A program made the translations under genes and the position numbers. Under the pieces are notes generated by a model that did no database searches, was not told the DNA's origin, and was given only the letters and a program-made list of their open reading frames with translations. A DNA stretch of 50,914 bases from a virus, in the IMG/VR virus record IMGVR_UViG_3300047560_001018, positions 1-50,914 of that record, one strand, 5' to 3'. Positions within the stretch are counted from its first letter, which is position 1, and the number at the start of each line of letters is the position of its first letter. This document shows, piece after piece, positions 1-50,848 of the stretch.

Positions 1-25
1 CTAATATGTTGAGACATAATATGTA

Positions 26-55: not shown

Positions 56-102
56 TAAATAGAATCATATATGGTCACACACAAAAAAAAGGAGATCCAC
101 CC

Positions 103-506: not shown

Positions 507-509
507 CCT

Positions 510-713: not shown

Positions 714-715
714 GA

Positions 716-2739: not shown

Positions 2740-2748
2740 GGAGACACC

Positions 2749-3293: not shown

Positions 3294-3294
3294 C

Positions 3295-5642: not shown

Positions 5643-5739
5643 GCTATGGTTGCAGGAGATGTATGGAGACTTTGAAGAAGGCGTGGCTTGGCTGGTGCCT
5701 GACAGCCCAGTGCAACCTGTGTCCAACCCAGATAACTAA
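5635..5739 (+). CDS. Hypothetical peptide, 34 aa
   Basis: ATG at 5635 overlaps the helicase stop, with GGAGGACAAG upstream as ribosome site. The product is acidic and Trp/Pro-rich (MNELWLQEMYGDFEEG...). It may be a real coupled gene or a chance frame; the ribosome site and overlap favour it. Confidence 0.5.
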   Translation: MNELWLQEMYGDFEEGVAWLVPDSPVQPVSNPDN

Positions 5740-5778
5740 TTATAGCTGCAAGTGTAGCTGCCACGAGAAGGAGAAGAA

Positions 5779-5934
5779 ATGATTAAGATCACTAGCCGAG
5801 GCCTTGAGATTGACAACCCAAGTATGGAAGAGCTCAAGCAGCTCGACAAGATCATGGAGTCGATCCGCGCTGAAGAGCGCGACCAGATCATCGCACGAAT
5901 CGAAGAGAAAAGCGAGTGCGTATGCGGGTGCTAG
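5779..5934 (+). CDS. Small coiled-coil protein with Cys tail, 51 aa
   Basis: ATG at 5779 follows GAGAAGGAGAAGAA. The product is helical and charged, and ends in ECVCGC, a Cys-rich tail that might bind metal or form disulfides. It overlaps the methylase-like gene by 19 bases. Function unknown. Confidence 0.6.
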   Translation: MIKITSRGLEIDNPSMEELKQLDKIMESIRAEERDQIIARIEEKSECVCGC

Positions 5935-6509
5935 TAGCGTGTGAGTATAGCGGCAAGGTTCGAGACGCTTTCATCGCGGCCGGCCACGACGCAATGAGTT
6001 GCGATCTGTTGCCTACCGATTCGCCGGGGCCACATTACCAAGGTGATGTATTCGATATCATCGACGACGGTTGGGATCTGATGATCGCACATCCGCCATG
6101 CACCTACTTGACTAATGCCGGAGTTAGCTGGCTATACCGCAAGGAAGGTCGCTGGGAACAAATGCGCGAAGGTGCAGAGTTCTTTAAGCGATTGCTTGAA
6201 GCTGATATCCCAAAGATCGCAGTTGAGAATCCTGTCATGCACAAGTATGCAAAAGAGATCATTGGCCAGAGTCAGGCGCAGGTAGTCCAGCCATGGATGT
6301 TCGGACACTTGGAGCAGAAGGGCACCGGCTTGTGGCTAAAGGGATTACCACTACTCGTGCCAACCAATAATGTTAAGGAGGAAACCATGCAGCTGCCATA
6401 CAGCGAGCGACAGCGAATCTTGAGCCTATCGCCTAGTGCAGATCGCTGGAAGATCCGTAGTGAAACTTACAGTGGCATTGCACAAGCAATGGCAGAGCAA
6501 TGGGGATAG
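5916..6509 (+). CDS. Cytosine-methylase-like phage protein, 197 aa
   Basis: Opens with VLVACEYSGKVRDAFIAAGH, resembling the FxG/AdoMet-binding start of C5 cytosine methyltransferases. It continues with D30LLP, DLMIAHPPCTYL (PPC motif, about 58-69) and AVENPVMHKYA, which parallels the ENV motif. At under 200 aa it is much shorter than classical C5 methylases and has no recognisable target-recognition domain. Proteins of this type are common in phages and are annotated as methylases, but activity is not established by sequence. GTG 5916 is used; ATG 5922 is an alternative. Confidence 0.75.
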   Translation: MRMRVLVACEYSGKVRDAFIAAGHDAMSCDLLPTDSPGPHYQGDVFDIIDDGWDLMIAHPPCTYLTNAGVSWLYRKEGRWEQMREGAEFFKRLLEADIPKIAVENPVMHKYAKEIIGQSQAQVVQPWMFGHLEQKGTGLWLKGLPLLVPTNNVKEETMQLPYSERQRILSLSPSADRWKIRSETYSGIAQAMAEQWG

Positions 6510-6519
6510 GAGAGAACAA

Positions 6520-6798
6520 GTGACTAACCAAGAAAATAACCTAGAGGCTTTGCACATCCACATTGAGGGACTGCAAGCCACGCTCACTAAACGCAACGCC
6601 CGTATCACTCAACTAGAAGCACAGGTTTCAGAGTTGAAGATGAATCCTGAAGCAGGGGCTAAAGAAACTAAGGCTTACAAGGCTGGTTGGAAAGCCTGTG
6701 CCAATCATCTACAAGATGCGGCTCGTAAAATGGCCTATGAACTTCGTGAAATTGATAAGGAAGCGTTCAAAATCTGGTTAGAGGGAGAGAACAAGTGA
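6520..6798 (+). CDS. Coiled-coil hypothetical protein, 92 aa
   Basis: GTG at 6520 is chosen because GGAGAG precedes it and because the same GGAGAGAACAAGTGA cassette starts the next gene; the in-frame upstream ATG lies inside the methylase-like gene. Residues 8-40 form a heptad-like coiled coil (LEALHIHIEGLQATL... ITQLEAQVSELK), and the rest is a basic helix. Function unknown. Confidence 0.65.
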   Translation: MTNQENNLEALHIHIEGLQATLTKRNARITQLEAQVSELKMNPEAGAKETKAYKAGWKACANHLQDAARKMAYELREIDKEAFKIWLEGENK

Positions 6799-6983
6799 GC
6801 TGCAACCACTCACAAGAAACTGCTTACATCGCCTGCATTGATTGCGACATTGAACACGCAACATTGACGGAGCGTGAACGCATCAATGGCATCATTGAGC
6901 AATTTATTGAAAATAGCGACTATCCAGAGGTTGTAAGTAGTCTTCAATGGTTGCAGGATGTTATCAAGGGAGAGAGCAAGTGA
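6795..6983 (+). CDS. Small Cys/His protein, 62 aa
   Basis: GTG at 6795 overlaps the previous TGA (GTGA). The N-terminus holds C3NH5 and C15-x2-C18 with a nearby His, a potential zinc site, followed by a helical tail. The ribosome site is the same cassette as in the genes on both sides. Function unknown. Confidence 0.6.
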   Translation: MSCNHSQETAYIACIDCDIEHATLTERERINGIIEQFIENSDYPEVVSSLQWLQDVIKGESK

Positions 6984-7207
6984 AGAACGCAGTAGAGAAG
7001 CTAAGCTTTACTCAGCAGTATGTTGAATGGAAGCGAGCAAAGGAATGGGTATCACACCAGTGGACGCCGGAGGAGTTTTTGCGAGAGGCTATCCTGCTAG
7101 AGAAGGAAGAGGTATACAACCAGATCTATGACATTCTAATGGAGGAAGATGATTGCACACCAGAAGTTGCGCTAGCCAAGATTCGCGACCTAGTATTCGA
7201 TGAGTAA
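6980..7207 (+). CDS. Hypothetical protein, 75 aa
   Basis: GTG at 6980 sits in the third copy of the GGAGAG-N-CAAGTGA start cassette and overlaps the previous stop; the longer frame starting at 6947 has no ribosome site. The product is helical, acidic and Trp-containing. It ends inside the ATG of the WhiB-like gene. Confidence 0.65.
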   Translation: MKNAVEKLSFTQQYVEWKRAKEWVSHQWTPEEFLREAILLEKEEVYNQIYDILMEEDDCTPEVALAKIRDLVFDE

Positions 7208-7730
7208 ATACGAGTGGGAGGAAGCGGAGAACCATAATCCGTGGGGCAAGAAGCGCAAGCGAGGGACACACTGCTCTAAGGGCCATGAGTTTACGCCAGA
7301 GAATACATTCATTCGAGCGTATGACAAGGCCCGCGTATGCCGAGAATGCCGCAAGCAGTATGCTCGTGAGAAGTATCAGCGCAACAAGGAGCTAACCGGA
7401 GCGTCACGCCAGAAGAAGATCCGGCAGGTGATCATCGAGTATGAGAACACGCTATCAGCTAATGCTATTGACAAGTGGCGAGAGCTGCAGTATGCTATTA
7501 GTGAGAATGATCCAAAGTGCAAAGGTGCTGAATCTGTCTATGCAGATAGACAATATCCAGTACCAGAGGATAAAGCCGAGGAGATGTGCCATGGCTGCCC
7601 ACTGATCAAGCTGTGCTACGACTATGCAGTAGCGGCCGAAGTCAACCAAGGCATTTGGGGTGGCATTGATTTTACACAGGAGGAGGAATATGACCTTATT
7701 GAAACGCTCTATCAAGGATCTTACAGTTGA
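7200..7730 (+). CDS. WhiB-like protein with N-terminal zinc-finger extension, 176 aa
   Basis: The C-terminal half has the WhiB signature: C107, then C130-x2-C133-x5-C139, and the turn GIWGG (151-155). In WhiB proteins four Cys hold a [4Fe-4S] cluster and the protein binds the host sigma factor to alter transcription. An additional N-terminal segment carries C25-x3-H29 (SKGHEFTPENTF) and C47-x2-C50, a knuckle resembling those of HNH-type phage proteins, making this longer than usual WhiB proteins of about 80-130 aa. A role in redirecting host transcription is inference from family. It lies at the head of the recombination/replication genes. Confidence 0.85.
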   Translation: MSKYEWEEAENHNPWGKKRKRGTHCSKGHEFTPENTFIRAYDKARVCRECRKQYAREKYQRNKELTGASRQKKIRQVIIEYENTLSANAIDKWRELQYAISENDPKCKGAESVYADRQYPVPEDKAEEMCHGCPLIKLCYDYAVAAEVNQGIWGGIDFTQEEEYDLIETLYQGSYS

Positions 7731-8391
7731 TCTGTTTCTACAGGAATCGGAACGAGATAAGCAACGCAAAGTTGGAGCGAGTCAGATCTCCGATCCATGC
7801 ACTAGACACTTAGCAAAAGCGCTGGTTGGTGAGAAAGAACAGCCGGCAAAGTATTGGTTGGGAGGTAAGATTGGAACAGCTATCCATAGCTTTATTGAAA
7901 ACGCTATTGATACTAGCACAGAGCATATCTTTAGCGATGCTATTGTTGAGCGTAAGATTGAACTGGGTCATATCGATGGTTACGGTGGCATTAGCAGCAA
8001 GCCTGACCTCGTTCTTCCTAGCATTAATCATCTAATCGACTGGAAGACCAGCAGCCGCAAGAAGGTTAAGCTGATCAAAGATCTAGTCGACGGCATTAAG
8101 CAGAGCCCAGCTTCGGAGTATACGCTTCAGAAGTATATCGGCCAAACCCAGCTGTATGCTTGGGGATTGAATCAGGCAGGAACTAAGATCGATGATATCA
8201 CGATCGTGTTTATCAATCGCGACGGCACATACGCCGAAGATATCTGGACCTATTCTATTCCATATCAGGAAGATATCGCGGTTGCACTATGGGATCGACT
8301 AGTTGCCCTGTGGAACGAGCTACAAGATGGAGCTCACCCAGACAACTATCCACCCAATGAGCATTGCTTTAAATGTTCTATGGGAATTTAG
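7690..8391 (+). CDS. Cas4/RecB-like PD-(D/E)XK nuclease, 233 aa
   Basis: ATG at 7690 follows AGGAGGAAT and is preferred over the longer frame. Order of motifs: N-terminal Cys in DPCTRHL, GTAIHSFIE (active-site His helix), KPDLVL (motif D), LIDWKTSS (the D/E-x-K motif) and QTQLYAWGL (Q-x3-Y helix), with CFKC at the end. This matches RecB/Cas4-family exonucleases, which often keep an Fe-S cluster; here three Cys are visible (one N-terminal, two C-terminal), so a complete cluster is uncertain. It precedes the Sak4-type ATPase and SSB genes, suggesting recombination or end processing. Confidence 0.88.
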   Translation: MTLLKRSIKDLTVDLFLQESERDKQRKVGASQISDPCTRHLAKALVGEKEQPAKYWLGGKIGTAIHSFIENAIDTSTEHIFSDAIVERKIELGHIDGYGGISSKPDLVLPSINHLIDWKTSSRKKVKLIKDLVDGIKQSPASEYTLQKYIGQTQLYAWGLNQAGTKIDDITIVFINRDGTYAEDIWTYSIPYQEDIAVALWDRLVALWNELQDGAHPDNYPPNEHCFKCSMGI

Positions 8392-8409
8392 CGACACGCC
8401 GTAACATAT

Positions 8410-8439
8410 TTGACTACAATTGGTTAAATGTGGTATAAT
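8410..8439 (+). promoter_or_regulatory. Sigma-70-type promoter before the recombination/replication genes
   Basis: TTGACT (8410-8415) and a perfect TATAAT (8434-8439) with an 18-base spacer lie in a 77-base gap between the nuclease gene and the next ATG, which has GAGGAGGAATTA as ribosome site. The gap holds nothing else obvious. It resembles the left-end promoter in spacing and in its AT-rich flanks. Confidence 0.75.
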
Positions 8440-8468
8440 GTATTTACACACAAATAGAGGAGGAATTA

Positions 8469-9200
8469 ATGTCGGCAACCGACTTTCCGGGCTTCTCATT
8501 CCAGAAGCTCATCCACAAGGCAGAACAGCTTAATAAGCCAAACTCGATCTTACTATTCGCAGATCCGGGCAAGGGCAAGACTTGGCTGGCCGCTTCGATC
8601 TCAGAGGTCGAGGGCTATGACAAGGTTCTTTTGATCGACGTTGAGGGTGGCGCGTCAGCGATCGCTCGAGACTGGAAGAACGTAGACGTTATCAGCGTGA
8701 AGACTCACGAGGGTTTCGTCAAGGTTATCGAAGAGCTACTTGCTAACCCTGACTACTACAACGCAGTGATCATCGACACCATTGGTGTTGTCATGGACCG
8801 AGCTGAGAAGTTCTTTGGCGAGAAGCCAGAGAACAAGAACAATAAGTTCGGCCGCTGGGGTGACCTGAAGAACTGGGCTAACCAAGTCTTCCGTGATCTT
8901 CACACTGCTTCGTTCACATCGATCATTATTGCACACGCACTTGACGACAAGGACGAATCAACGGGAGCAGTGAAGACTACTGCAATGCTTCCGGGCTCAT
9001 TCAAGGGAACGCTTCCGGGCATCCCCGATATCGTTGGCTACATGACGTTCGAGATGGGCGATGAGGGACCACAGCGTGTTCTAGTCACCGGAAACTCGGA
9101 TCGACTAGTAACCAAGAACCGCTTCGGTTTGCCACCGAAGATTTACGCACCAACCATGAAGAAGATCTTTGATCTCATTAACGAAGGAGGAAACAACTAA
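8469..9200 (+). CDS. Sak4-type RecA-like AAA ATPase, 243 aa
   Basis: Single-domain recombination ATPase. Walker A is ADPGKGKT (31-38); LLIDVEGG follows as the next conserved strand; NAVIIDTIG (99-106) is the Walker B region. These are features of the phage NTP-binding Sak4/RecA-core group, which promotes strand annealing or exchange with its SSB partner. The adjacent DUF669-like gene (one-base overlap at 9200) is the usual partner. It has its own promoter and is probably expressed strongly. Confidence 0.87.
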   Translation: MSATDFPGFSFQKLIHKAEQLNKPNSILLFADPGKGKTWLAASISEVEGYDKVLLIDVEGGASAIARDWKNVDVISVKTHEGFVKVIEELLANPDYYNAVIIDTIGVVMDRAEKFFGEKPENKNNKFGRWGDLKNWANQVFRDLHTASFTSIIIAHALDDKDESTGAVKTTAMLPGSFKGTLPGIPDIVGYMTFEMGDEGPQRVLVTGNSDRLVTKNRFGLPPKIYAPTMKKIFDLINEGGNN

Positions 9201-9667
9201 TGACTAACATTTCATTCGACATCACCGAGGAAGCCCTAGCGGCTGCCAATTCATCGAGCTACGAGCCAGTTCCAGCAGGTTCGTATAATGCAACCATCTT
9301 CGACGTCAAGTCGGAGCAGGTAAAGTCGGGTCCAAACGAGGGCAAGCCGCGCTTCAACATCCAGTTCCGTCTCGGTGGTCAGGGCGTTGAGAACCGTCGC
9401 GTGTTCGGTTACGTCTCACTCTACGCTGCTGGTGACTTCTGGAAGACCAAGGCGTTCTTCTCGGCGCTTGGCTACGACATGAAGTCTGGCAAGTTCACCG
9501 TTCCAGAGACAACCGAGTTGCTCGGTAAGCCAATCGGTGTCACTGTCAAGATCGGCACTGATCAGAACGGCCAGCCTCGAAACGAGATCGGCGGCTTCGA
9601 CAAGCCAGACGGCGCAGCAACCCTCGCTGCTGCTTTGGGCGCAAAGCCAGTAGGCGACGTCTTCTAG
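9200..9667 (+). CDS. DUF669-like single-stranded DNA-binding protein, 155 aa
   Basis: Beta-rich OB-fold-like protein with a typical opening (YEPVPAGSYNATIFDVKSEQ), a GKPRFNIQFRL strand, then FWKTKAFFSALG and IGVTVKI strands. This pattern fits the DUF669/phage SSB group that accompanies Sak4 ATPases. It would coat ssDNA during replication and recombination. The start shares a base with the stop of the ATPase gene (TAATG), with AAGGAGGAAACAAC as ribosome site. Confidence 0.8.
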   Translation: MTNISFDITEEALAAANSSSYEPVPAGSYNATIFDVKSEQVKSGPNEGKPRFNIQFRLGGQGVENRRVFGYVSLYAAGDFWKTKAFFSALGYDMKSGKFTVPETTELLGKPIGVTVKIGTDQNGQPRNEIGGFDKPDGAATLAAALGAKPVGDVF

Positions 9668-9709
9668 TCGAAAACAAAATCCTAGGTCATGATTTAAAAC
9701 TGACCCCAC

Positions 9710-9793
9710 GCCCGGACTGGTGTTAAAGCTTTGGTGTCTTCCTTTCTTTCTCCTTTCTGTTAGCTGATGCAAGTTCGATTCTTGCTCCGGGCA
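9710..9793 (+). ncRNA. tRNA-like element lacking a normal anticodon arm
   Basis: A perfect 7-bp acceptor stem (GCCCGGA 9710-9716 with TCCGGGC 9786-9792, discriminator A9793) and a perfect T-arm (GCAAG / TTCGATT / CTTGC, 9769-9785) are intact. The 52 bases between them do not fold into a normal D- and anticodon arm; they contain 22 consecutive pyrimidines (9737-9758). The total of 84 bases is near class II tRNA length. It may be a decayed tRNA, or a tRNA-like RNA using the acceptor end for processing. Confidence 0.5.
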
Positions 9794-9865
9794 CAAACTG
9801 CATGCTCTCCGTAAGTGGCCGGCATGTGGGTCCTGTAGTGTAGCCAAGGCAGCTGCAGGATATTT
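9794..9865. other. Structured spacer between tRNA-like element and tRNA-Asn
   Basis: No reading frame of note. Two local hairpins are visible: CATGC (9803-9807) with GCATG (9823-9827), and TCCTGTAG (9833-9840) with CTGCAGGA (9853-9860). They may be tRNA remnants or processing signals; nothing more can be read from them. Confidence 0.35.
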
Positions 9866-9937
9866 TGCCCCTTAGCTCAATGGCAGAGCAGGAAGCTGTT
9901 AACTTCAAGGTTGTTGGTTCGAGTCCAGCAGGGGCAG
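9866..9937 (+). tRNA. tRNA-Asn (GTT)
   Basis: Cloverleaf by hand: acceptor TGCCCCT/AGGGGCA (9866-9872 with 9930-9936), D-stem GCTC/GAGC, anticodon stem GGAAG with loop CTGTTAA (anticodon GTT at 9898-9900), variable loop AGGTT, T-stem GTTGG/CCAGC around TTCGAGT, discriminator G9937. The outermost anticodon-stem pair is G-A, a mismatch. CCA is not encoded. It probably supplements Asn decoding for AAC/AAT-rich phage genes. Confidence 0.9.
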
Positions 9938-9965
9938 CGGGAGAAACATACATAAAGGAGGATAC

Positions 9966-12161
9966 ATGAAGACAGCGGATTTCTTTTCTGCAGTATTTGG
10001 CGATGGCCGTGGACTAGCAACTATCGTAACCAAAGGTGCTACTGGCGAACTAACTGAGCAGCGGTTCTACGAGTATCCAGAGCGCAAAGATGAGATGATC
10101 GCATACTGCAATCTGCACACTCGCGAAGATGTTTACTTCTCACCAATTCTTTTCAACTCGCCACGTCGCATTAAAGAAAATGCTAAGACTGTATCAGTTA
10201 TCTATTCCGATGCAGATACTTGCGAGCCAGACAACTTCTTGATCGAGCCTTCGATCGTCGTGCAGACCTCGCCAGATCGCTGGCACACATACTGGATGCT
10301 GACTGAAGAGACAGATCCACAGGTAGCTGCACTTCTATCCAAGAAGATCGCACACGCCCATGCCCACCAAGGCTGTGACAAATCAGGCTGGAATACCACT
10401 AAGCTTCTCCGTGTGCCAAACTCGATGAACCTGAAGCGTGAACCATTTAGCGTTACGGCCGTTAGCAACGGATCACTATACACGCTTGATGATATCGAGC
10501 TGCACTATGGTGATGTTGAAGTTGAACCAATTCGGGAACTGACAATCTCAGAATTCCCACCAGAATTCCCAGACCTCATGACTACACTGAATAAGGTCCA
10601 GAGTAATCCGGAAGTGCTTGGCTTGTATATCAACGAGCCTTCTCCGAATGCAGACTGGTCCAAACTTCTGTGGAAGCTAGAGATCGCCTTGTATCGCCAA
10701 GGCCTAAGTGAGCGAGAGGTATTTGTTGTATGTCGCGGTGCGAAGTGCAACAAGTATCACTCACCGCTACGACCAAAGCGTATGGATGCAGATGGCGATC
10801 TATGGCGTGAAGTGCAGCGAGCGCACCAGTCGTTTGTTGCAGAGGGCGGAATGCTTGAGCCAGTGCGTATCGAGCCACTCGACACCATTGTTATCTCGCA
10901 GGAGCCCGAACGAGCTGTATTCTTAAGCGACGACGAGCGTTCTTTGGTCATGGAGACGCCCACGTTCGTGGATGAATATCTAGGATGGGCCACATCGAAG
11001 ACGGACGGTGCGATCAGTTATCAGATCGCTAGTGCATTTACTGCGCTATCGTGCGTATTCTCCGACATTGGTTATGCTGTGCCGAAGTACGGACGTATGG
11101 GCCTGAATCTGTGGTTTATGGTGCTAGGTGAAACAACTCTTACTCGTAAGTCAACTAGCCGCAACCTTATGTTGCGACTGATTCGCGAGTATGAAAAGTT
11201 CTCTGGCTACCAGATCGACATTGGTTCGGATGCAACGCCGGAAGGTGTTACATCTATCCTTTCTGAGCGAGACGGAAAGACTTCCCTATTGCACAGAGAT
11301 GAAGTCCAAGGTATGTTTAAGGACTTCATGAACAAAACCTACATGGCCTCAGCAGCCGAGCGATTCACTGAATTGTATGACGGCCATGTTCCGGTTGTAA
11401 TCCGATCAGGCAAGGGCAAGTCCCAGACTGAGCGAGCAACCACAAACTTCGTGATGTATCTTATGGGTATCGGATCGAAGACAGCTGATGTTCTCACTAC
11501 TGAGTACTTTAAGTCTGGCTTCTTGGCACGTTTCATTTATGTTACAGCCAAGACGCCAGACCGTACTCGTGAGATGGAGGATATCCAACAGGCAGAAGAG
11601 CATGAAGCGATCATTAAAGATGGTAAGCTAGACTCTTTGGTTAAGTCCCTTTATGGCGCAGTTACCTACTGGCAGAAGAAGGGCTCGCCAATGCCGCGAC
11701 CGATCCGATTGGATCACTCGGCACTGGAGCGGTTCAACCGATTCAAGTGGGAGATGGGCAACTTTGCTGAGTCTCACCCAGAATACGAATCGATCGAACC
11801 TAGCCGACAGCGACTAGCACTATCTGTTTGGAAGTGTGCAATCCTGTTGGCCATGTATGATCAGTCAGATGAAGTAAGACTTAAGCATATGCTTATTGCT
11901 ATTTACTATTCTGAAGACTGGTTTGCCAACCTAACTGAGATGGCTAGCGCTATCTCAAACTCTGAATGGCAGCGCGACGTCGACAAGCTCGAAGCGTTGG
12001 TCATGGATAAGGGTGGGCGAATTCGTTATGAAGAAGCGTATCGCAAGTTTAACAACAAGCGCAAGCGCGAATTCGACGAAATGGTACAGGCCCTGCAATC
12101 GCAGGCGCGTGTGCAGCAAGTAATAGAAAACCAGAAAACGTATTTGGAGGTGATTGGATAA
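9966..12161 (+). CDS. Primase-helicase: AEP primase domain with DUF3987-like ATPase, 731 aa
   Basis: The N-terminal part has archaeo-eukaryotic-type primase motifs: SDAD (81-84, catalytic D-x-D), TSPDRWHTYW (101-110, S-x-H nucleotide site) and RVPNSMNLKRE (149-159, third acidic/basic motif region). The C-terminal part is an ATPase with the Walker-A-like GETTLTRKST (388-397), SDATPEGV (421-428), the Walker-B-like LLHRDEVQGMF (441-451) and a downstream helical domain, like DUF3987-type helicases. It probably primes and unwinds at the phage origin and may substitute for a separate replicase-loading system. ATG at 9966 follows AAGGAGGATAC, just after tRNA-Asn. Confidence 0.87.
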   Translation: MKTADFFSAVFGDGRGLATIVTKGATGELTEQRFYEYPERKDEMIAYCNLHTREDVYFSPILFNSPRRIKENAKTVSVIYSDADTCEPDNFLIEPSIVVQTSPDRWHTYWMLTEETDPQVAALLSKKIAHAHAHQGCDKSGWNTTKLLRVPNSMNLKREPFSVTAVSNGSLYTLDDIELHYGDVEVEPIRELTISEFPPEFPDLMTTLNKVQSNPEVLGLYINEPSPNADWSKLLWKLEIALYRQGLSEREVFVVCRGAKCNKYHSPLRPKRMDADGDLWREVQRAHQSFVAEGGMLEPVRIEPLDTIVISQEPERAVFLSDDERSLVMETPTFVDEYLGWATSKTDGAISYQIASAFTALSCVFSDIGYAVPKYGRMGLNLWFMVLGETTLTRKSTSRNLMLRLIREYEKFSGYQIDIGSDATPEGVTSILSERDGKTSLLHRDEVQGMFKDFMNKTYMASAAERFTELYDGHVPVVIRSGKGKSQTERATTNFVMYLMGIGSKTADVLTTEYFKSGFLARFIYVTAKTPDRTREMEDIQQAEEHEAIIKDGKLDSLVKSLYGAVTYWQKKGSPMPRPIRLDHSALERFNRFKWEMGNFAESHPEYESIEPSRQRLALSVWKCAILLAMYDQSDEVRLKHMLIAIYYSEDWFANLTEMASAISNSEWQRDVDKLEALVMDKGGRIRYEEAYRKFNNKRKREFDEMVQALQSQARVQQVIENQKTYLEVIG

Positions 12162-12565
12162 TGGATCGTAACGAAGCATTGAAGGTAGCATCAGCACTGA
12201 ATGAAGCTATCTGGCTGAGAGATAACATCCACCTGCTATCCCGCGTGGATGTCGAGGATGGTGTAAAGCGGCTAGCTGTGTTCGGTGTGTTCTCCAACCG
12301 CCAGATACAAGCTATTACAGCGGGCCGGGTAAGCCATCAGTCAGTTGCTCGCATAACAGGCAAGAGCAACAAGTCTGGTGGCAGCCTGAACCCGGGCTCA
12401 CTAGAGCTACTACGTTCTGTGCTATACCGCCGAGCAGAATCAGAGTCAGACTTTGACCTGATCTCACAGGCGGTAGAGCTCGGAACATCACAACACATGG
12501 TTGCAAAGCTAACCGGCGTAAGCCAAAGCACAATTAGCAAGAAACTTAAGGAGGACAATGGCTGA
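12161..12565 (+). CDS. Putative helix-turn-helix DNA-binding protein, 134 aa
   Basis: The C-terminal segment HMVAKLTGVSQSTISKKLKE is a convincing helix-turn-helix of the type used in small regulators; an earlier segment (FGVFSNRQIQAITAGRVSHQ) may be a second HTH-like unit, suggesting two tandem DNA-recognition modules. It begins in a TAATG overlap with the primase gene. It could be a transcription regulator or an origin-binding accessory factor; which one is not shown. Confidence 0.7.
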   Translation: MDRNEALKVASALNEAIWLRDNIHLLSRVDVEDGVKRLAVFGVFSNRQIQAITAGRVSHQSVARITGKSNKSGGSLNPGSLELLRSVLYRRAESESDFDLISQAVELGTSQHMVAKLTGVSQSTISKKLKEDNG

Positions 12566-12725
12566 TCTAATGTCACGCAAAGCCAAGTTTGAGGAAGTAA
12601 AGCAAGATACAAAGGCTCTGCGATTCCACTGCGATCGCTATGAGTCTGGAGCTACTGACAAGCTGGCAAAGCAGTGCTATCAGTATCTACGAATCCTGAA
12701 GGAGGCCTACGGTGTGGAAGTCTAG
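12558..12725 (+). CDS. Hypothetical protein, 55 aa
   Basis: ATG at 12558 has AAGGAGGACA directly upstream and overlaps the end of the HTH gene; the end overlaps the RuvC-like gene by 14 bases. The product is helical and basic with two Cys. It was recovered because it fills a gap exactly and has a strong ribosome site. Function unknown. Confidence 0.6.
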   Translation: MADLMSRKAKFEEVKQDTKALRFHCDRYESGATDKLAKQCYQYLRILKEAYGVEV

Positions 12726-13158
12726 ACTGCTATGCCTCGATCCGGGTGGCACAACTGGTGTTGCCCTGCTAGAGTATGATGAAGAAACTGCGCCAAGCAT
12801 TATTTGGCACAAGCAGATCGAAGGCGGCCTGCAGGGCTTCCTAAATTTTCACTGGGATCAGTTGCAAGACTGGCTCTATAGTGAGATCATCTGCGAGTCA
12901 TTCACTCTCCGTGAAGGAGTCTACGGTGTAGACCTATCGCCAACGTACATAATCGGGGCACTAGAGGCCTTACACGAGTTGGATGATATTATCTATCAGG
13001 AACCGTCAATGAAGCCTCTATGCGACGATGAGCGCCTTAAGAAGATGGGTCTATATACACCGGGCCGAGGACATGCAATGGATGCTGTTCGTCATGGTGT
13101 TATCTACCTCCGCAACAAAAAGCACAAGCCTACGCTGGAAGCTGGGTGGAAGGAGTAA
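12712..13158 (+). CDS. RuvC-like Holliday-junction resolvase, 148 aa
   Basis: RNase H-fold nuclease expected to cut branched DNA before packaging. Motifs: LDPGGTTG (9-16, first catalytic Asp), IICESF (Glu in the second strand, around residue 62) and a C-terminal GHAMDAVRHG helix supplying the last acidic residue and a His. The length fits phage RuvC-like enzymes. GTG at 12712 is preceded by AAGGAGGCC. It lies between the primase-helicase block and the exonuclease. Confidence 0.83.
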   Translation: MWKSRLLCLDPGGTTGVALLEYDEETAPSIIWHKQIEGGLQGFLNFHWDQLQDWLYSEIICESFTLREGVYGVDLSPTYIIGALEALHELDDIIYQEPSMKPLCDDERLKKMGLYTPGRGHAMDAVRHGVIYLRNKKHKPTLEAGWKE

Positions 13159-13159
13159 T

Positions 13160-13897
13160 ATGAAGATTCTATTCTTGGATCTGGAGACAAGCCCCAACAT
13201 GGCATATGTTTGGGGATTGTTCAACCAGAATGTGTCTATCAACCAAATGGTAAAGTCAACCGAAGTGATCTGCTTCGGAGCAAGGTGGAATGGTGAAAAG
13301 AAAGTTACCTTCAAGTCTGTACACCATGACGGTAAAGAAGCGATGCTTGATTCGCTTTGGGAACTTGTTAATGAGGCTGATGTACTTGTGGGCTGGAATA
13401 GCCAAAGCTTTGACTCTAAGCACATTAAGCGAGAGCTCCTTGAAAATGGCTACACCCCACCGTCACCGTACAAAGAGCTTGATCTCATGCGTGTTGTGCG
13501 TTCACAGTTTAAGTTCCCGTCAAACAAACTCGATTATGTGGCGCAAAAGCTTGGAGTTGGTGCTAAAGTTAAGCACTCGGGTTTTGATCTATGGGTCGCT
13601 TGCATGGCAGGAGACAACAAAGCATGGGCGGAAATGAAGAAGTATCAGATTCAGGACGTAGACCTGCTGATCGACCTTTACGATAAGCTGCTACCTTGGA
13701 TCAAGAACCACCCGAATCGAGCACTACACGACGATGTTCCAGATGGCTGCCCAAACTGTGCGTCAACCAACATGGAGCGACGCGGCTTTAGCTACACTAC
13801 CGTAGCTAAATACCAGCGCTACCAGTGCAAGAACTGTGGGAAGTGGACGCGTGGCGGTACTGCGGTATCTAACGTCGCTCTTCGCTCGGCTGTTTAA
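13160..13897 (+). CDS. DnaQ-like 3'-5' exonuclease with C-terminal zinc ribbon, 245 aa
   Basis: Start ATG 13160 follows AAGGAGTAAT. The N-terminus has the D-x-E motif FLDLETS (5-11); GWNSQSFDSKHI is the Exo II N-x3-F-D motif, and YQIQDVDLLIDLYDKL carries the Exo III Y-x3-D pattern. These match the proofreading domain of family B polymerases and predicted phage exonucleases. After about residue 190 comes a zinc ribbon (CPNC ... CKNCGKW). No polymerase domain follows, so it is a stand-alone exonuclease that may assist replication or recombination. Confidence 0.83.
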   Translation: MKILFLDLETSPNMAYVWGLFNQNVSINQMVKSTEVICFGARWNGEKKVTFKSVHHDGKEAMLDSLWELVNEADVLVGWNSQSFDSKHIKRELLENGYTPPSPYKELDLMRVVRSQFKFPSNKLDYVAQKLGVGAKVKHSGFDLWVACMAGDNKAWAEMKKYQIQDVDLLIDLYDKLLPWIKNHPNRALHDDVPDGCPNCASTNMERRGFSYTTVAKYQRYQCKNCGKWTRGGTAVSNVALRSAV

Positions 13898-13919
13898 GCG
13901 CAACTATGTGGAGGTGGGC

Positions 13920-14198
13920 TTGTTAAAAGAGCTCCCTCCACTTGTTGTTCCAGCGGGATATGAGGAGCATGTGTTGCATATGTACAGCGAAGAGATGGAC
14001 GCGAATGTTATTGTCCATCTAGTGTGCGCCTGTGACGCTCCATCATTCAAGAAGATTGATCGAGATGAATATACCTGTATCCATTGCGATAATCCATGCA
14101 ATGTGGTAGACTGCATCAGATGTAAAGCATTGGATGAATTCGATAACTACGAATTCCCAGCAGATGAGATCGGTGGTGAAGAAGATTCCGACGTATGA
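13920..14198 (+). CDS. Cys-rich hypothetical protein, 92 aa
   Basis: TTG at 13920 is chosen because GGAGG lies five bases upstream, and the longer frame overlaps the exonuclease. Around residues 38-67 there are CAC, CIHCDNPC and CIRC, enough Cys for one or two zinc sites; the tail is very acidic. Function unknown; probably a nucleic-acid or protein-binding zinc protein. Confidence 0.6.
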   Translation: MLKELPPLVVPAGYEEHVLHMYSEEMDANVIVHLVCACDAPSFKKIDRDEYTCIHCDNPCNVVDCIRCKALDEFDNYEFPADEIGGEEDSDV

Positions 14199-14376
14199 TT
14201 ATGAATGCAAAGATTGCAAAACCAAGCTGTCAATCGTCGCAAACATTAAGGATACAGTTACTGAACCGGCTTGTGAAGATTGTAAAAAAGCAATGACTCG
14301 CAAGTATAACTTTGGCGCAGTGACATTTAAGGGTTCAGGTTTCTACCGGACCGACAGAAATAAGAAGGAGGAGTAA
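14176..14376 (+). CDS. FmdB-family zinc-ribbon protein, about 66 aa
   Basis: PTYDYECKDCKT near the start, CEDCKK in the middle and FKGSGFYRTD at the end are the hallmarks of FmdB-type small zinc-ribbon proteins, described as putative regulators in bacteria. GTG 14173 and GTG 14176 are both possible starts; the second gives the usual family N-terminus. The frame overlaps the preceding gene by 23 bases. The biological role in phages is not established. Confidence 0.75.
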   Translation: MKKIPTYDYECKDCKTKLSIVANIKDTVTEPACEDCKKAMTRKYNFGAVTFKGSGFYRTDRNKKEE

Positions 14377-14561
14377 TGCCGTATTACATTAGCAAGACAC
14401 AAAAAGATTGCAAAGGCCGTTGGGCTGTGATCAGTTCGGATAAGAAGATTCATGGCTGTCACCCAAACAAGCAGGCAGCGATTGCACAGATGGTTGCCAT
14501 CTCGATTGCTCAGAAGATGGATCCGGGTGGCACTTGGCCGGGCGACAAGAAGGCTAAATAA
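14376..14561 (+). CDS. Conserved actinophage-type hypothetical protein, 61 aa
   Basis: ATG at 14376 overlaps the previous TAA (TAATG), with AAGGAGGAG before it. The product is small and basic; GCHPNKQAAIAQMVAISIAQKM followed by PGGTWPG resembles a short motif found in several actinophage proteins. Function unknown. Confidence 0.65.
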   Translation: MPYYISKTQKDCKGRWAVISSDKKIHGCHPNKQAAIAQMVAISIAQKMDPGGTWPGDKKAK

Positions 14562-14944
14562 TGCAGGCCTACGATCTAGTTGACACACTCGTAAAGATCG
14601 ACTACTCAGTCCACAATACTGCACAAATGGTAGCTAACATTAAAGAAGCAAAGGTCATTCATCGGCCGACTGGTAACTTTATTATTATCACTGCTCAGCC
14701 AGATATCCCAGCTGTGCATAGTGCCGTTAGCGCAATGGTTAATGACAATTTTCCAAACTGCCAGCGAGTAGTATTTGTTAGTGGATCAGAAGCTCAAGTT
14801 GCAGAGAAAAAGGCTGGAGTTATTAAGCGTAATAACATCACTGACTTCACCGATAACAATCGTGCGATTCTAGCGAAGATCAAAGAGCTGGTTCCAGATG
14901 TAACCCTATGGGTTATGACTGGTTCTGGCAAGAAGAAATATTAG
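14561..14944 (+). CDS. Putative HAD-like protein, 127 aa
   Basis: ATG at 14561 overlaps the preceding stop. Alternating strands and helices (DLVDTLVKID, NFIIITAQPD, RVVFVSGSEAQVAEKKAGVI, DVTLWVMTG) give a Rossmann-like or HAD-like impression, with S/T at the strand ends. The catalytic D-x-D is not clearly present, so an enzyme call is not justified. It sits just before nucleotide-metabolism genes, so a nucleotidase-like role is possible. Confidence 0.55.
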   Translation: MQAYDLVDTLVKIDYSVHNTAQMVANIKEAKVIHRPTGNFIIITAQPDIPAVHSAVSAMVNDNFPNCQRVVFVSGSEAQVAEKKAGVIKRNNITDFTDNNRAILAKIKELVPDVTLWVMTGSGKKKY

Positions 14945-14951
14945 GAGGAAC

Positions 14952-15368
14952 ATGGCAAAGATTAATGTGATTGGGAATGTTCCAGCGTATGCACAGATTG
15001 GTGACGCAGGGGCTGATCTAGTCTCAACCGAGGAGCTAACGCTTACTCCGGGACAGACAAAGCTTGTAAAGACTGGAACGTCAATTGCAATTCCAGAGAG
15101 TATGGTCGGTATGGTCTGCTCACGATCAGGGCTATCGCTGAAGAACAGTATCTTTGTGCTTAACGCACCGGGAATCATCGACTCTGGATACCGTGGAGAG
15201 ATCGGCGTTATCTTGCACAATGCAAGCGAAGACTGGTTCCCGATTAAACCGGGCGACCGTATTGCTCAGCTAGTATTTGTACGACACGTTGTTGCGGAAT
15301 TCAACGAGGTTAATTCGCTGGATGCAACTGAGCGTGGAGACAGCGGCTTTGGATCGACGGGAGTATAG
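14952..15368 (+). CDS. dut: dUTPase, 138 aa
   Basis: Trimeric dUTP pyrophosphatase, hydrolysing dUTP to dUMP and pyrophosphate, which limits uracil in DNA and feeds ThyX. All five motifs are present in order: DAGADL, CSRSGLSLK, PGIIDSGYRGEIG, GDRIAQL and the C-terminal P-loop-like RGDSGFGSTG. Length is standard. AGGAGGAAC precedes ATG 14952. The stop overlaps the GTG of thyX by one base, so the two are coupled. Confidence 0.95.
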   Translation: MAKINVIGNVPAYAQIGDAGADLVSTEELTLTPGQTKLVKTGTSIAIPESMVGMVCSRSGLSLKNSIFVLNAPGIIDSGYRGEIGVILHNASEDWFPIKPGDRIAQLVFVRHVVAEFNEVNSLDATERGDSGFGSTGV

Positions 15369-16054
15369 TGAAGTACAGGACCGATGTTACAGTTGATCTT
15401 ATTGATGCTATGGCTTCTGACGATATCATCGTCAAGGCGGCTCGAGTTTCTACTGGTGCTAGTGACAATAAAGATCGTGACGCTGGGCTCATTAACTATC
15501 TAATGCGTGACCGCCACGGCTCACCATTCGAACACGCCGTGTTCACGTTCCGCATCGAAGCACCAATCTTCGTGTTCCGTGAGTTTATGCGTCACCGCAT
15601 GGCCTCGTATAATGAGGAGAGCGGCCGATACAAGGAGCTCGAGCCCGTGTTCTACGTTCCGGGTGGTAAGCGTAATCTGATTCAGATTGGCAAGCCGGGA
15701 GCTTATGAGTTCATTCCGGGCACAGAAGAGCAGCATGACCTAGTTGTTGAGTCAATCATCAGTGCGTCAAAGGAAGCATACAATCGCTACGAGAGTATGC
15801 TGGCAGCTGGCATTGCGCGTGAGGTTGCTCGTGTTGTACTACCAGTCAATATTTATTCATCGATGTATGTAACAATGAACGCACGATCGCTGATGAATTT
15901 CTTGAGTCTTCGCACCAAGGATGATAATAGCGCATTCCCTTCGTTCCCGCAGCGTGAGATCGAGATGGTTGCCGAAAAGATGGAAGCAATCTTCTCTGGC
16001 TGGATGCCAGCTACTCATGCTTCATTTGTAAAGAATCGGAGGGTTGCACCATAA
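15368..16054 (+). CDS. thyX: Flavin-dependent thymidylate synthase ThyX, 228 aa
   Basis: Converts dUMP to dTMP using methylene-THF and reduced FAD. The ThyX signature RHRMASYNEESGR lies at residues 75-87, preceded by RHGSPFEHAVFTF, and the C-terminal SLRTKDDNSAF region matches the dUMP/FAD site. GTG start at 15368 overlaps the dut stop. ThyX rather than ThyA fits an actinobacterial host. It would replace host dTMP supply during replication. Confidence 0.95.
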   Translation: MKYRTDVTVDLIDAMASDDIIVKAARVSTGASDNKDRDAGLINYLMRDRHGSPFEHAVFTFRIEAPIFVFREFMRHRMASYNEESGRYKELEPVFYVPGGKRNLIQIGKPGAYEFIPGTEEQHDLVVESIISASKEAYNRYESMLAAGIAREVARVVLPVNIYSSMYVTMNARSLMNFLSLRTKDDNSAFPSFPQREIEMVAEKMEAIFSGWMPATHASFVKNRRVAP

Positions 16055-35690: not shown

Positions 35691-36653
<963 letters not shown>

Positions 36654-48727: not shown

Positions 48728-48805
48728 GTGCAACCGGCCGACCCGTGGGAATCCGCCTTCGGGTTCGGCCAGGCCACCGATCTACGGCCGGCTAGCTTGA
48801 GATAA
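48728..48805 (+). CDS. Possible 25-aa peptide
   Basis: Opens with GTG directly after the preceding TAG and ends at TAA within the first promoter's upstream motif. It reads QPADPWESAFGFGQATDL. No ribosome site; the same stretch holds a GC-rich hairpin, so it may be non-coding. Confidence 0.25.
   Translation: MQPADPWESAFGFGQATDLRPASLR
48736..48770 (+). terminator. GC-rich hairpin without T-tract
   Basis: GGCCGACCCG (48736-48745) pairs with CGGGTTCGGCC (48760-48770) except for one bulge. No T run follows. It ends the small-gene operon and precedes the promoter array, so it may be a rho-type pause or processing site. Confidence 0.4.
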
Positions 48806-48851
48806 CAATTCGATAACGGCACTTGACAAGCTGCACAAGCTCGGCTAAGCT
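48802..48851 (+). promoter_or_regulatory. Right-arm promoter P1 with tandem TAAC boxes
   Basis: ATAAC at 48802-48806 and 48813-48817 (11-base period), then TTGACA (48823-48828), 17-base spacer and TAAGCT (48846-48851). The second box ends five bases before the -35. The transcript would begin before a short structured region and other promoters. Confidence 0.75.
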
Positions 48852-48876
48852 AGAGCTACAAATAAAAAACGATCTA

Positions 48877-48930
48877 TGGGTTTGGTCCGAAATGCCCGGT
48901 AATGCAACGGTTCAAAATCCACCCTACCCA
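48877..48930 (+). ncRNA. Possible small structured RNA
   Basis: TGGGT (48877-48881) pairs with ACCCA (48926-48930), with an inner short pairing and a GGTTCAAAATCC segment resembling a T-arm. No reading frame. It would be transcribed from P1. Much weaker than tRNA-Asn; it may be a decayed tRNA or chance. Confidence 0.25.
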
Positions 48931-48941
48931 AAATTGGAATA

Positions 48942-48990
48942 TAACAATTTGGTAACATCGCTTGACACGGCGAGCGCTTTTCGCTAGGCT
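48942..48990 (+). promoter_or_regulatory. Right-arm promoter P2 with tandem TAAC boxes
   Basis: ATAACAATTTGGTAAC then TTGACA (48962-48967), 17-base spacer, TAGGCT (48985-48990). Same architecture as P1, ten bases shorter downstream region. Confidence 0.75.
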
Positions 48991-49013
48991 AGTTTTGATA
49001 CCCGTTTTGGAAT

Positions 49014-49063
49014 ATAACAATCCGGTAACAAAGCTTGACAACCGGCCGAGCTTATGCTATGCA
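49014..49063 (+). promoter_or_regulatory. Right-arm promoter P3 with tandem TAAC boxes
   Basis: ATAACAATCCGGTAAC then TTGACA (49035-49040), 17-base spacer and TATGCA (49058-49063). Confidence 0.7.
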
Positions 49064-49082
49064 TCCGGCCGGCCAGGGCAAT

Positions 49083-49132
49083 GTAACAATTTGGTAACGA
49101 AGCTTGACACAAAGCTAGATCCATGCTTAACT
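49083..49132 (+). promoter_or_regulatory. Right-arm promoter P4 with tandem TAAC boxes
   Basis: GTAACAATTTGGTAAC then TTGACA (49104-49109), 17-base spacer and TTAACT (49127-49132). Nearest promoter to the 46-aa gene and the Gp88-family gene. Confidence 0.7.
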
Positions 49133-49158
49133 ATTACTAACCAAACGAAAGGTATCTC

Positions 49159-49299
49159 ATGCACGTTTTCTATCGCGCTACTTTTAGCGATGGCGTTACT
49201 CGCAAAATCGAGCTAAACCAATTCCACCGCGTTGTATTTGCCCTTGAAAAGCAAGGCATTACTTGCACCCATTCGTGGGTTGACATCGAGCTAAACTAG
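49159..49299 (+). CDS. Hypothetical protein, 46 aa
   Basis: ATG 49159 follows CGAAAGGTATCTC. One strand-helix-strand unit: HVFYRATFSDGVTRKIELNQFHRVVFALEKQ. Served by four stacked promoters, so strongly expressed; it stands just before the Gp88-family gene. Function unknown. Confidence 0.7.
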   Translation: MHVFYRATFSDGVTRKIELNQFHRVVFALEKQGITCTHSWVDIELN

Positions 49300-49314
49300 A
49301 GATAGGCTAGAGAC

Positions 49315-50049
49315 ATGACTACTACACAACTAACCCTTAAGCGTTCTAAGGATCGCAAAGTCGCTAACGCCATCACGCCTAATGGCAAAGCGCCAGCGAT
49401 CGCCAACACCTTTGGATTGCCTAGCGGCAAAGCTTTCTCATGCCCGGGCGCGACAACCGTTTGCGAGAAGATCTGCTACGCGGGCAACCTTGAGAGGATC
49501 TACAAAGGTGTGAAGGATGTACTTTTGCACAATTGGCAAGCTCTCGAGAATGCCACCGAATCAGAAGCCACCGAGCTACTAGCCGCGATGATCGATGAAT
49601 TCCGCAAGGATTGCGACAAGCGCAACGCCGAGAAGCTATTCCGAATCCATTGGGATGGCGACTTTTTTAATGAGACTTACACGATCGCGTGGCGTAATGT
49701 AATCGAAGCTAACGCCGATATCCAATTTTGGGCATACACCCGAAGCGACTTCGCCGTTCCGCTATTGATCAATATTGACAACTTGAGCTTGTATTTCTCG
49801 ACCGACATGGCTAACCGCGTGTTGGGTATCAAGCTAAAGAAGCAATACGGCGTGAAGCTAGCTTACCTAGCCAACACTTTCGCCGAAGGTAAGTCCGACT
49901 TTGAGACCATTCAGGATAAGTCGCCGATTCCATGCCCTGAAAACAACCGCAAGCTAGCTTTGATCACCGACAAGGGATCGGCTTGCGTCACTTGCTCGCA
50001 GTGCGTGTTCAACCGCAACGACATTCTGTTTAGCGCAACCAAGAAATAA
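49315..50049 (+). CDS. Gp88-family Cys-rich phage protein, 244 aa
   Basis: Features match the actinophage Gp88 family: AFSCPGATTVCEKICYAGNLERIYKG (Cys at about 43, 49 and 53, followed by YAG), RIHWDGDFFNETYTIAWRNVIEANADIQFWAYTRS in the middle, and a C-terminal CVTCSQC. The Cys arrangement suggests an iron-sulfur or zinc site, reminiscent of radical-SAM proteins, but the biochemical role of the family is not known to me. The promoter array before it and the compact length imply an early, highly expressed product. Confidence 0.8.
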   Translation: MTTTQLTLKRSKDRKVANAITPNGKAPAIANTFGLPSGKAFSCPGATTVCEKICYAGNLERIYKGVKDVLLHNWQALENATESEATELLAAMIDEFRKDCDKRNAEKLFRIHWDGDFFNETYTIAWRNVIEANADIQFWAYTRSDFAVPLLINIDNLSLYFSTDMANRVLGIKLKKQYGVKLAYLANTFAEGKSDFETIQDKSPIPCPENNRKLALITDKGSACVTCSQCVFNRNDILFSATKK

Positions 50050-50095
50050 CAAGTTGATAACGGGGGTTGACAAGCTGGTTGATCCCCGTTAAACT
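50046..50095 (+). promoter_or_regulatory. Right-arm promoter P5 / possible terminator
   Basis: TAACAAGTTGATAAC then TTGACA (50067-50072), 17-base spacer, TAAACT (50090-50095). The same region can form AACGGGG (50059-50065) / CCCCGTT (50084-50090), so the -35 would sit in a loop; this could be a Gp88 terminator instead. Confidence 0.5.
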
Positions 50096-50186
50096 TGTTT
50101 CATAATTTAAAAAGCGATAACAAAGTTTGGCCCGATAAGCTTAGTAAACACACGGGAGATAACCGGCCCTACCCTGTGCAACAACA

Positions 50187-50235
50187 TAACGATTCGATAA
50201 CAACACTTGACAACCGACAACCTATCCACTAAGCT
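50187..50235 (+). promoter_or_regulatory. Right-arm promoter P6 with tandem TAAC boxes
   Basis: ATAACGATTCGATAAC then TTGACA (50207-50212), 17-base spacer, TAAGCT (50230-50235). Downstream the DNA holds no gene for more than 300 bases, only another degenerate box pair. Confidence 0.7.
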
Positions 50236-50277
50236 AGATCTGATACCCAATTCCAACATAACGAAACGATAACGGGC

Positions 50278-50306
50278 ATTCTACAGGCTCGCATCCACTT
50301 TGTCAA
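50278..50306 (-). promoter_or_regulatory. Leftward promoter with near-consensus boxes
   Basis: On the minus strand TTGACA (50306-50301), exactly 17 bases, and TAGAAT (50283-50278), the best sigma-70 match in the right arm. GATAAC boxes flank it in opposite orientation (50259-50274 and 50313-50321). The transcript would run leftward, antisense to the Gp88 gene. Confidence 0.65.
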
Positions 50307-50333
50307 GCCCGAAACGATAACAATCAGATCACA

Positions 50334-50480
50334 ATCAACGAAGCCACCAGCGGCCGCTAGCGGGCTTTTCAGCTATTGGTTGGTATGATTCCCCATTCTA
50401 ATGGCTTCGTGGCTTCTACGGGCGTTTTACGGCGTTTTTGGATCTTTTGCCCTAGCTCTATAGATCATGGCACAGGCTTG
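50334..50480. other. Non-coding spacer with inverted repeats
   Basis: No gene. GAAGCCAC (50339-50346) is repeated inverted as GTGGCTTC (50409-50416), GCGGCCGC is a palindrome, and CGGGCTTTTC looks like a weak terminator end. The region may separate the leftward promoter from P8 and could hold an origin or processing site; nothing firm can be said. Confidence 0.35.
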
Positions 50481-50481
50481 C

Positions 50482-50546
50482 CGTTATCAATCCGTTATAA
50501 AAAAGTTTGGAAAAACACTTGACAAGCGTTTCGGCTGTGCTAGATT
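50482..50546 (+). promoter_or_regulatory. Right-arm promoter P8 with reversed TAAC boxes
   Basis: GTTATCAATCCGTTAT (50483-50498) is the tandem box in reverse orientation. It is followed 20 bases later by TTGACA (50519-50524), a 16-base spacer and TAGATT (50541-50546). This promoter would drive the final 86-aa gene. Confidence 0.7.
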
Positions 50547-50587
50547 AGAGATATCAGGAAGCAAACAACACGAAAGGAATTCCCGAT

Positions 50588-50848
50588 ATGTATACGATCA
50601 ACGATCAAGCAACCGCCGAAAAGCTAGCCGCGTCTCAAGGTATCTGGAGCGTCTACTACTTGCTCGACAGCTACCGCGACCAGAGCGCACCGCTTGTTCT
50701 CATGAACGCTATGGGTCGTTGCTACCCACTGGGCGCAGATCTGGGCAACATGGACTTGAAGACGATTCAGATTCTGGGTCTCGCGCTTCAGACCTACGCG
50801 CTCTCACCCGATGAAGTCCACGACTTCGTGGATCGGTTTGTTGAGTAG
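50588..50848 (+). CDS. Hypothetical protein, 86 aa
   Basis: ATG 50588 follows GAAAGGAATTCCCGAT. Mixed alpha/beta: DQATAEKLAASQGIWSVYYLLD, LVLMNAMGRCYPLGADLGNM and a helical end (LSPDEVHDFVDRFV). It has its own promoter in the same array family as the Gp88 gene. Function unknown. Confidence 0.7.
   Translation: MYTINDQATAEKLAASQGIWSVYYLLDSYRDQSAPLVLMNAMGRCYPLGADLGNMDLKTIQILGLALQTYALSPDEVHDFVDRFVE

Follow-up and report, generated by a model that had tools for sequence, protein, structure and literature searches.

Paired RTAAC boxes in a phage promoter array, probable sites for the host regulator MtrA

The right end of the virus record IMGVR_UViG_3300047560_001018 carries an array of promoters that share a paired box, RTAAC-N6-RTAAC. 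All coordinates refer to the 50,914 bases of this record, hereafter called the window. The box is a direct repeat with an 11-base-pair (bp) period and is found eight times in the window, every time inside 48802-50498. Judging from its sequence, the array probably consists of early phage promoters activated by MtrA, an OmpR-family response regulator of the host that is conserved in actinobacteria.

The number of boxes is far above expectation: dinucleotide shuffling of the window gives a mean of 0.20 matches (standard deviation 0.47, maximum 3), and eight were reached in none of 100 shuffles. The 19 other spacings between N0 and N19 yield zero or one match apiece. On the plus strand, six of the eight boxes (48802, 48941, 49014, 49083, 50046 and 50186) are followed by N5 and TTGACA. 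An earlier, sequence-only reading of this DNA had described six promoters with TTGACA, a 17-base spacer and paired boxes 11 bases apart that end about five bases before the -35; this distance is exactly five in all six. Hexamers at the -10 position are indeed present 17 bp after each -35, as read from the sequence, but the TA-rich -10 that the promoters were said to share amounts to only three or four of the six letters of TATAAT (TAAGCT, TAGGCT, TATGCA, TTAACT, TAAACT and TAAGCT in P1 to P6, with 3, 3, 3, 3, 4 and 3 matches). The reversed box pair of an eighth unit, P8, was confirmed on the minus strand, with a promoter spacer of 16 bp. The features of the array, including its open reading frames (ORFs), are as follows.

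48802-48851, plus strand: P1; boxes ATAACAATTCGATAAC at 48802-48817, -35 TTGACA at 48823-48828, weak -10 TAAGCT at 48846-48851.
48941-48990, plus strand: P2; boxes ATAACAATTTGGTAAC at 48941-48956, -35 at 48962-48967, weak -10 TAGGCT at 48985-48990; missing in the relative L141.
49014-49063, plus strand: P3; boxes ATAACAATCCGGTAAC at 49014-49029, -35 at 49035-49040, weak -10 TATGCA at 49058-49063.
49083-49132, plus strand: P4; boxes GTAACAATTTGGTAAC at 49083-49098, -35 at 49104-49109, weak -10 TTAACT at 49127-49132; precedes the ORF at 49159-49299.
49159-49299, plus strand: ORF of 46 amino acids, the first gene downstream of P1-P4; no match in a Pfam search.
49315-50049, plus strand: gene of a Gp88-family protein (PF17338, E 5.7e-50).
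50046-50095, plus strand: P5; boxes ATAACAAGTTGATAAC at 50046-50061, -35 at 50067-50072, -10 TAAACT at 50090-50095; overlaps the end of the Gp88 gene.
50186-50235, plus strand: P6; boxes ATAACGATTCGATAAC at 50186-50201, -35 at 50207-50212, weak -10 TAAGCT at 50230-50235.
50258-50273, plus strand: box 7, without a -35; the divergent promoter is expected to start here.
50278-50306, minus strand: divergent promoter; TTGACA at 50301-50306, N17, TAGAAT at 50278-50283; 11 of 12 consensus matches.
50483-50546: P8; reversed box at 50483-50498 (minus strand), TTGACA at 50519-50524 and TAGATT at 50541-50546 (plus strand), 16-bp spacer.
50588-50848, plus strand: ORF of 86 amino acids downstream of P8; no match in a Pfam search.
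1-16054, plus strand: genes faced by the array once the ends are joined as in the relatives described below; WhiB and weak helix-turn-helix (HTH) matches from searches, and helicase-like, dUTPase-like and ThyX-like ORFs recognized by eye only.

A general promoter scan of the array region returned four promoter-like sites against a shuffled mean of 3.2 (standard deviation 1.8), and P5 alone among P1-P6 passes it. The combination of a consensus -35 and a weak -10 is at least compatible with the need for an activator. The copy near 50259, box 7, had been taken for a promoter that lost its -35. A -35 is indeed absent, but the box is more than a lost promoter: the divergent minus-strand promoter, whose own -35 and 17-bp spacing are retained in both relatives compared (read from the alignment), is expected to start at this box. 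Box 7, having such geometry, is a possible repression site for the divergent promoter.

A leader element, TTTGRTRCCC, lies 3' of the -10 in a number of array-type promoters, in the window at 48995-49003 and 50240-50248. It was also found in L013, L033, L034, L044, L067, L077, L088, L093, L098, L103 and L116. Among the loci scanned, 13 of its 28 matches stand 9-10 bp ahead of the next box, and the promoter units there repeat every 72-73 bp.

The boxes fit the core of the MtrA binding site. In Corynebacterium glutamicum, the MtrA consensus is (A/G)TAACAATttn(A/G)TAACAAT, in which a direct repeat of 8 bp has 3 bp between its copies, described as loosely conserved by its authors (PMC3353115). All eight boxes of the window match its RTAAC-N6-RTAAC core, and for those at 48941 and 49083 the match is exact over the first 16 positions. 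The motifs of Mycobacterium tuberculosis and Streptomyces coelicolor MtrA are likewise direct repeats with an 11-bp period (PMC6265350, PMC5650626). In S. venezuelae, the only half-site positions that never vary between sites are T1 and C4, both of which TAAC has (PMC13189361). The placement agrees as well: MtrA sites in C. glutamicum lie upstream of the -35 at activated promoters and near the -10 at repressed ones (PMC3353115), and six of the eight boxes end 5 bp before TTGACA. No OmpR-type DNA-binding domain (Trans_reg_C) was identified in the 34 motif-bearing phage records, many of which are fragments; therefore, the regulator would be that of the host. Homologues of the WhiB protein were found in 19 of the 27 longest of these records (the seven shortest were omitted from the WhiB and HTH searches), including all nine of at least 40 kb, and among 14 control genomes only in C. 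glutamicum. This presence of WhiB supports actinobacterial hosts.

According to the sequence-only reading, the array drives only a few small genes, a heavy investment. This impression arises because the record is cut at that point. L055 and L074, the closest relatives found, match the window up to its last base and then resume at its first bases, crossing the junction from 50914 to 1 with about 110 extra bases between the two ends. To judge from these alignments, the record is therefore circularly permuted or cut at the junction, and the array faces the plus-strand genes that begin at window position 1. Transcription may proceed past the 86-amino-acid ORF into these genes.

Conservation was measured by aligning the array with two relatives, which are not independent of each other, with gaps excluded. 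Changed cells amounted to only 2 of 130 in seven of the boxes and 0 of 66 in the -35 hexamers, next to 46 of 194 in the 17-bp spacers and 150 of 1164 at other positions. The eighth box showed 1 change in 20, and the Gp88 gene 140 in 1462. When gaps are counted, 8.6% of the box positions are changed versus 15.9% elsewhere; the higher value for the boxes is due to L141, which is without the whole of P2.

The motif is widespread among related viruses. Eighty viral loci were fetched by similarity to the Gp88 protein, regardless of the motif; they were taken among the matches listed and are not known to be a random sample. Totals from the motif scan, the Gp88-locus scan and the gapped-box scan of viral sequences are lower bounds. 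The search of related genomes that had been named as a check gave at least 181 sites with the N6 spacing in 50 of the 80 loci, whereas 20 other spacings between N0 and N20 gave a mean of 8.8 sites, with a maximum of 29 at N7. The remaining 30 loci have no RTAAC-N6-RTAAC; many of the 80 are inter-related, and their sites are not independent. The strict pattern, a box followed by N5 and TTGACA, was found in at least 33 viral stretches versus one stretch in the genome collection, from a metagenome-assembled genome (MAG) of the Nanopelagicales. Among named phages, a blastn search for similar arrays returned only short weak matches to one Klebsiella and four Streptococcus records (E 0.1-0.6).

An inverted arrangement, RTAAC-N6-GTTAC, is also enriched in the Gp88 loci (L142-L219), with 28 sites versus a background of 3.1, both strands counted.

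The distance between box and -35 follows the helical repeat. When boxes with TTGACA 1-31 bp further on were sought, with the gap left free, the matches listed gave at least 132 events in 112 loci, of which 72 were left once similar ones had been removed. Twenty of these non-redundant events have a gap of 5 bp. The commonest gaps among the 51 events at 7-31 bp are 15 (12 events), 16 (10), 26 (8) and 24 (4), and 34 of the 51 fall within 14-17 or 25-27 bp versus 14.3 expected, in classes picked after the data had been seen. At a period of 10.5 bp, the Rayleigh R of these 51 gaps is 0.57, a value reached in none of 20,000 uniform draws. A stricter set leaves out the events that have a further repeated element in common and the sites where TAAC occurs a third time; in it, 19 of 34 are still in phase versus 9.5 expected (p 0.0006). 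Two control hexamers gave four and two matches, a weak control, as the loci of this search had been selected for TTGACA. In the Gp88 loci, 16 of 26 TTGAC sequences within 50 bp of a box are at gaps of 15-16, 25-26 or 35-36 bp. Phasing by whole helical turns is a mark of an activator that contacts RNA polymerase. The gaps fall into groups of 5, 15-16 and 24-26 bp, each a turn away from the next, a pattern that suits an activator. This agrees with the earlier suggestion of an activator-like regulator whose direct-repeat sites are spaced by one helical turn, as does the 11-bp period.

In the related phages L044, L049, L093, L103, L290, L294, L309 and L312, MtrA-like boxes are separated from -35-like hexamers by a repeated element, GG(C/T)GTGTCG-N-(C/T)TTGACA.

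On actinobacterial chromosomes, the pattern RTAACRATTNGRTAAC was found at 22 sites versus none for the backward control in 148 genomes from the order to which the Nanopelagicales MAG belongs, and at 16 sites versus one control match in 296 genomes of the phylum, with the MAG itself counted in both sets. Some of these chromosomal boxes sit within long reading frames. Among the genes beside the RTAACRATTNGRTAAC sites, ftsE and ectA occur two times each, their identities being supported by matches to TIGR02673 and TIGR02406. In S. venezuelae, ectABCD is directly activated by MtrA (PMC13189361), and a Dietzia mtrAB mutant has altered ftsEX expression (PMC9602371). A scan of 350 bp upstream was applied to 26 of 30 ftsE loci (the other four had short flanks) and to all 11 ectA loci. 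Perfect boxes were present in 5 of the 26 and 2 of the 11 genomes, and at ten other spacings between N2 and N12 there were none. Of 20 genomes from the same order as the MAG, 16 have a match to the MtrA model over its cut-off.

The proposed mechanism is the following. A dimer of phosphorylated MtrA would bind the 11-bp direct repeat upstream of the -35 and, from the same face of the helix, would make contact with sigma or RNA polymerase. The Gp88 segment and the early operon would then be transcribed in step with the division and osmotic state of the host, and the phage might benefit from following it. At box 7, over the start of the divergent promoter, the same MtrA could repress that promoter. 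A wider proposal is more tentative, and we would place it somewhat short of an even chance: that a large set of actinobacterial phages have wired early transcription to MtrA, which is tied to division, cell wall and osmotic response, through phased boxes, and read the growth or osmotic state of the host so as to choose the moment of infection or put it on hold, as has been suggested for phages with CtrA sites, with box 7 silencing the opposing promoter.

Several observations weigh against MtrA as the activator. In the array itself, the -10 hexamers of P1-P6 are weak, and the -35 hexamers match the consensus, so that these promoters may work without an activator. The AAT of the MtrA consensus follows the second half-site in none of the eight boxes and the first in four. 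TTGAC at 5 bp was found in none of the 135 distinct boxes of 78 Gp88 loci (the two near relatives excluded); only 26 TTGAC sequences lie within 50 bp of these boxes, and many boxes have no recognized promoter. No enrichment was seen in the scanned parts of four named actinophages, with no RTAAC-N6-RTAAC in Amigo (50,000 of 59,173 bases) or Trixie (50,000 of 53,526) and one each in BFK20 (42,968 of 42,972) and P1201 (50,000 of 70,579). The last two infect C. glutamicum or its kin, the bacteria from which the consensus comes. On chromosomes, other sites precede rpiB, pfkB-like and DeoR-type regulator genes, for which we know of no link to MtrA. No perfect box was present in 21 of the 26 ftsE and 9 of the 11 ectA upstream regions, and independently of the pattern search, by which L371, L374, L392 and L393 had been found, the boxes number 3 in 24 for ftsE and 0 in 9 for ectA. 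A loose pattern is not enriched on the chromosome of the Nanopelagicales MAG (G034), the one chromosome to which it was applied, with 9 versus 31 control matches. Finally, no box matching at least nine of ten letters occurs in 10 mtrA loci, and autoregulation of mtrA through such a box was rejected for these loci.

The boxes could instead be bound by a regulator of the phage itself, such as the HTH protein at 12161-12562, the WhiB protein at 7200-7727 or an unrecognized protein. The sequence-only reading had inferred a dedicated phage regulator and likened the boxes to sites of CII-type activators or to a repressor operator, with the HTH and WhiB proteins as candidate binders. The 33 viral stretches with the strict pattern versus a single one in the genome collection speak in favor of a phage regulator, as do the WhiB homologues in 19 of 27 motif records. 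We consider it unlikely. The boxes fit the core of a host box, none of the 34 motif-bearing phage records carries a recognized OmpR-type domain, and the motif also precedes chromosomal genes; the chromosomal excess over control and the boxes upstream of ftsE in some genomes would be unexplained by a phage-only factor. A homologue of the HTH protein is present in only 8 of the 27 motif records searched, on which ground it was rejected as a dedicated regulator. Of the nine records that reach 40 kb, counting the window, five have it, and G001, G003, G012 and G024, which may be incomplete, lack it. WhiB, by its presence in all nine, stays a candidate, but neither the 11-bp direct repeat nor gaps as wide as 15-26 bp are known to be typical of WhiB proteins.

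Another OmpR-family regulator of the host, GlnR or PhoP, might use the boxes, which we hold to be quite unlikely. GlnR shares the 11-bp direct-repeat design, its box in M. smegmatis being t/gTAAC-n6-Gc/aAAC (PMC10704036). That paper includes a reference title by which GlnR boxes are bound by MtrA in S. coelicolor and a table that puts ectABCD among GlnR-linked genes; ectA thus cannot separate GlnR from MtrA. The half-sites of the array do not fit a GlnR box, which was rejected for it: the second half-site is RTAAC in all eight window boxes, not Gc/aAAC. In the 78 Gp88 loci, RTAAC-N6 is followed by ATAAC 106 times (background 3.8) and by GTAAC 62 times (2.8), and GAAAC and GCAAC are outside the 12 most enriched words listed. 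For ftsE, we know of no role as a GlnR target.

It is very improbable that the boxes are repressor operators, like the operators and stoperators of cluster A mycobacteriophages. They abut the -35 and are concentrated in one region as many near-identical copies, and 270 of the 371 records with a Gp88 match in tblastn are Mycobacterium phages, many of which belong to cluster A. The in-phase gaps of 5, 15-16 and 24-26 bp, however, fit an activator and not steric blocking. Moreover, the bases after TTGACA vary among P1-P6, unlike the 13-bp asymmetric operator of cluster A, and Trixie has no box in the part scanned. The box of CtrA, a member of the OmpR family, reads TTAA-N7-TTAA and was rejected, as the window half-sites read ATAA or GTAA in all eight boxes; in the 80 Gp88 loci, the 181 sites increase by no more than 10 when T and C are allowed as the first base of the half-sites.

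Activation by MtrA would be the same kind of arrangement as in the phages with CtrA and PhoB sites, in another phylum and with another regulator, and not a member of the CtrA case, since the half-site differs. Like cyanophage PhoB boxes (PMC10976474, where Zeng and Chisholm 2012 is cited), the boxes would tie phage genes to a two-component system of the host. The cyanophage sites concern phosphate stress, whereas here a promoter array carries MtrA-type boxes. Host PhoB binds cyanophage promoter DNA in vitro, and predicted PhoB boxes are an unreliable guide to binding (PMC10976474); this caution applies to MtrA-type boxes too. Mutually unrelated alphaproteobacterial phages carry binding sites for CtrA, the master cell-cycle response regulator of their hosts (Mascolo et al. 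2022, PMC9437464). The likeness would lie in the presence of sites for a host response regulator in phage genomes. The host phylum and the regulator are different, the box here is RTAAC-N6-RTAAC, and its set is coupled to TTGACA with helical phasing. Furthermore, binding and regulation by CtrA are experimentally demonstrated in those phages, whereas binding of MtrA is predicted here from sequence.

With the MtrA regulon of C. glutamicum, the array shares the core box, the 11-bp period, the box upstream of the -35 and, at box 7, the geometry of repression near the -10. That regulon, as given in the available part of the source (PMC3353115), consists of chromosomal genes and includes no phage promoters, and its second AAT is not kept here. 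None of the matches listed in a literature search (titles and abstract openings, with few subscription papers covered) describes phage genomes with MtrA sites. MtrA is among the host proteins predicted to interact with phage proteins (PMC12363180).

If activation by MtrA holds, actinophages would join alphaproteobacterial phages and cyanophages in switching genes through a host response regulator, and this would suggest that phages of different bacterial phyla arrived independently at one general strategy. Activation by MtrA would also provide a directly testable link between infection and the division and osmotic state of environmental actinobacteria. The success of the phage could then vary with host MtrA activity and osmolarity, and the phage boxes would be clean probes of MtrA specificity.

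A conserved non-coding block with TGATTCCCCATT lies 3' of box 7 (50340-50440) and is also present in L055, L058 and L141. A structured RNA at 50330-50450 was considered and rejected, the z-scores of single-sequence folding (-0.98 and -0.34) being not significant. Rfam, at the gathering threshold over the whole window, gave nothing besides one tRNA, a single tRNA-Asn gene at 9866-9938.

As in Mycobacterium phages with Gp88, the Gp88-family gene lies near the end of the record; Trixie differs from the window in the absence of the box from its scanned part. For the terminase, the best matches among those listed come from Arthrobacter phages, with identities of 44-46%. The ribonucleotide reductase small-subunit gene (35752-36596) is 73-75% identical in DNA to Mycobacterium phage genes, and every match in a megablast of 26000-50914 against named phages falls inside this gene.

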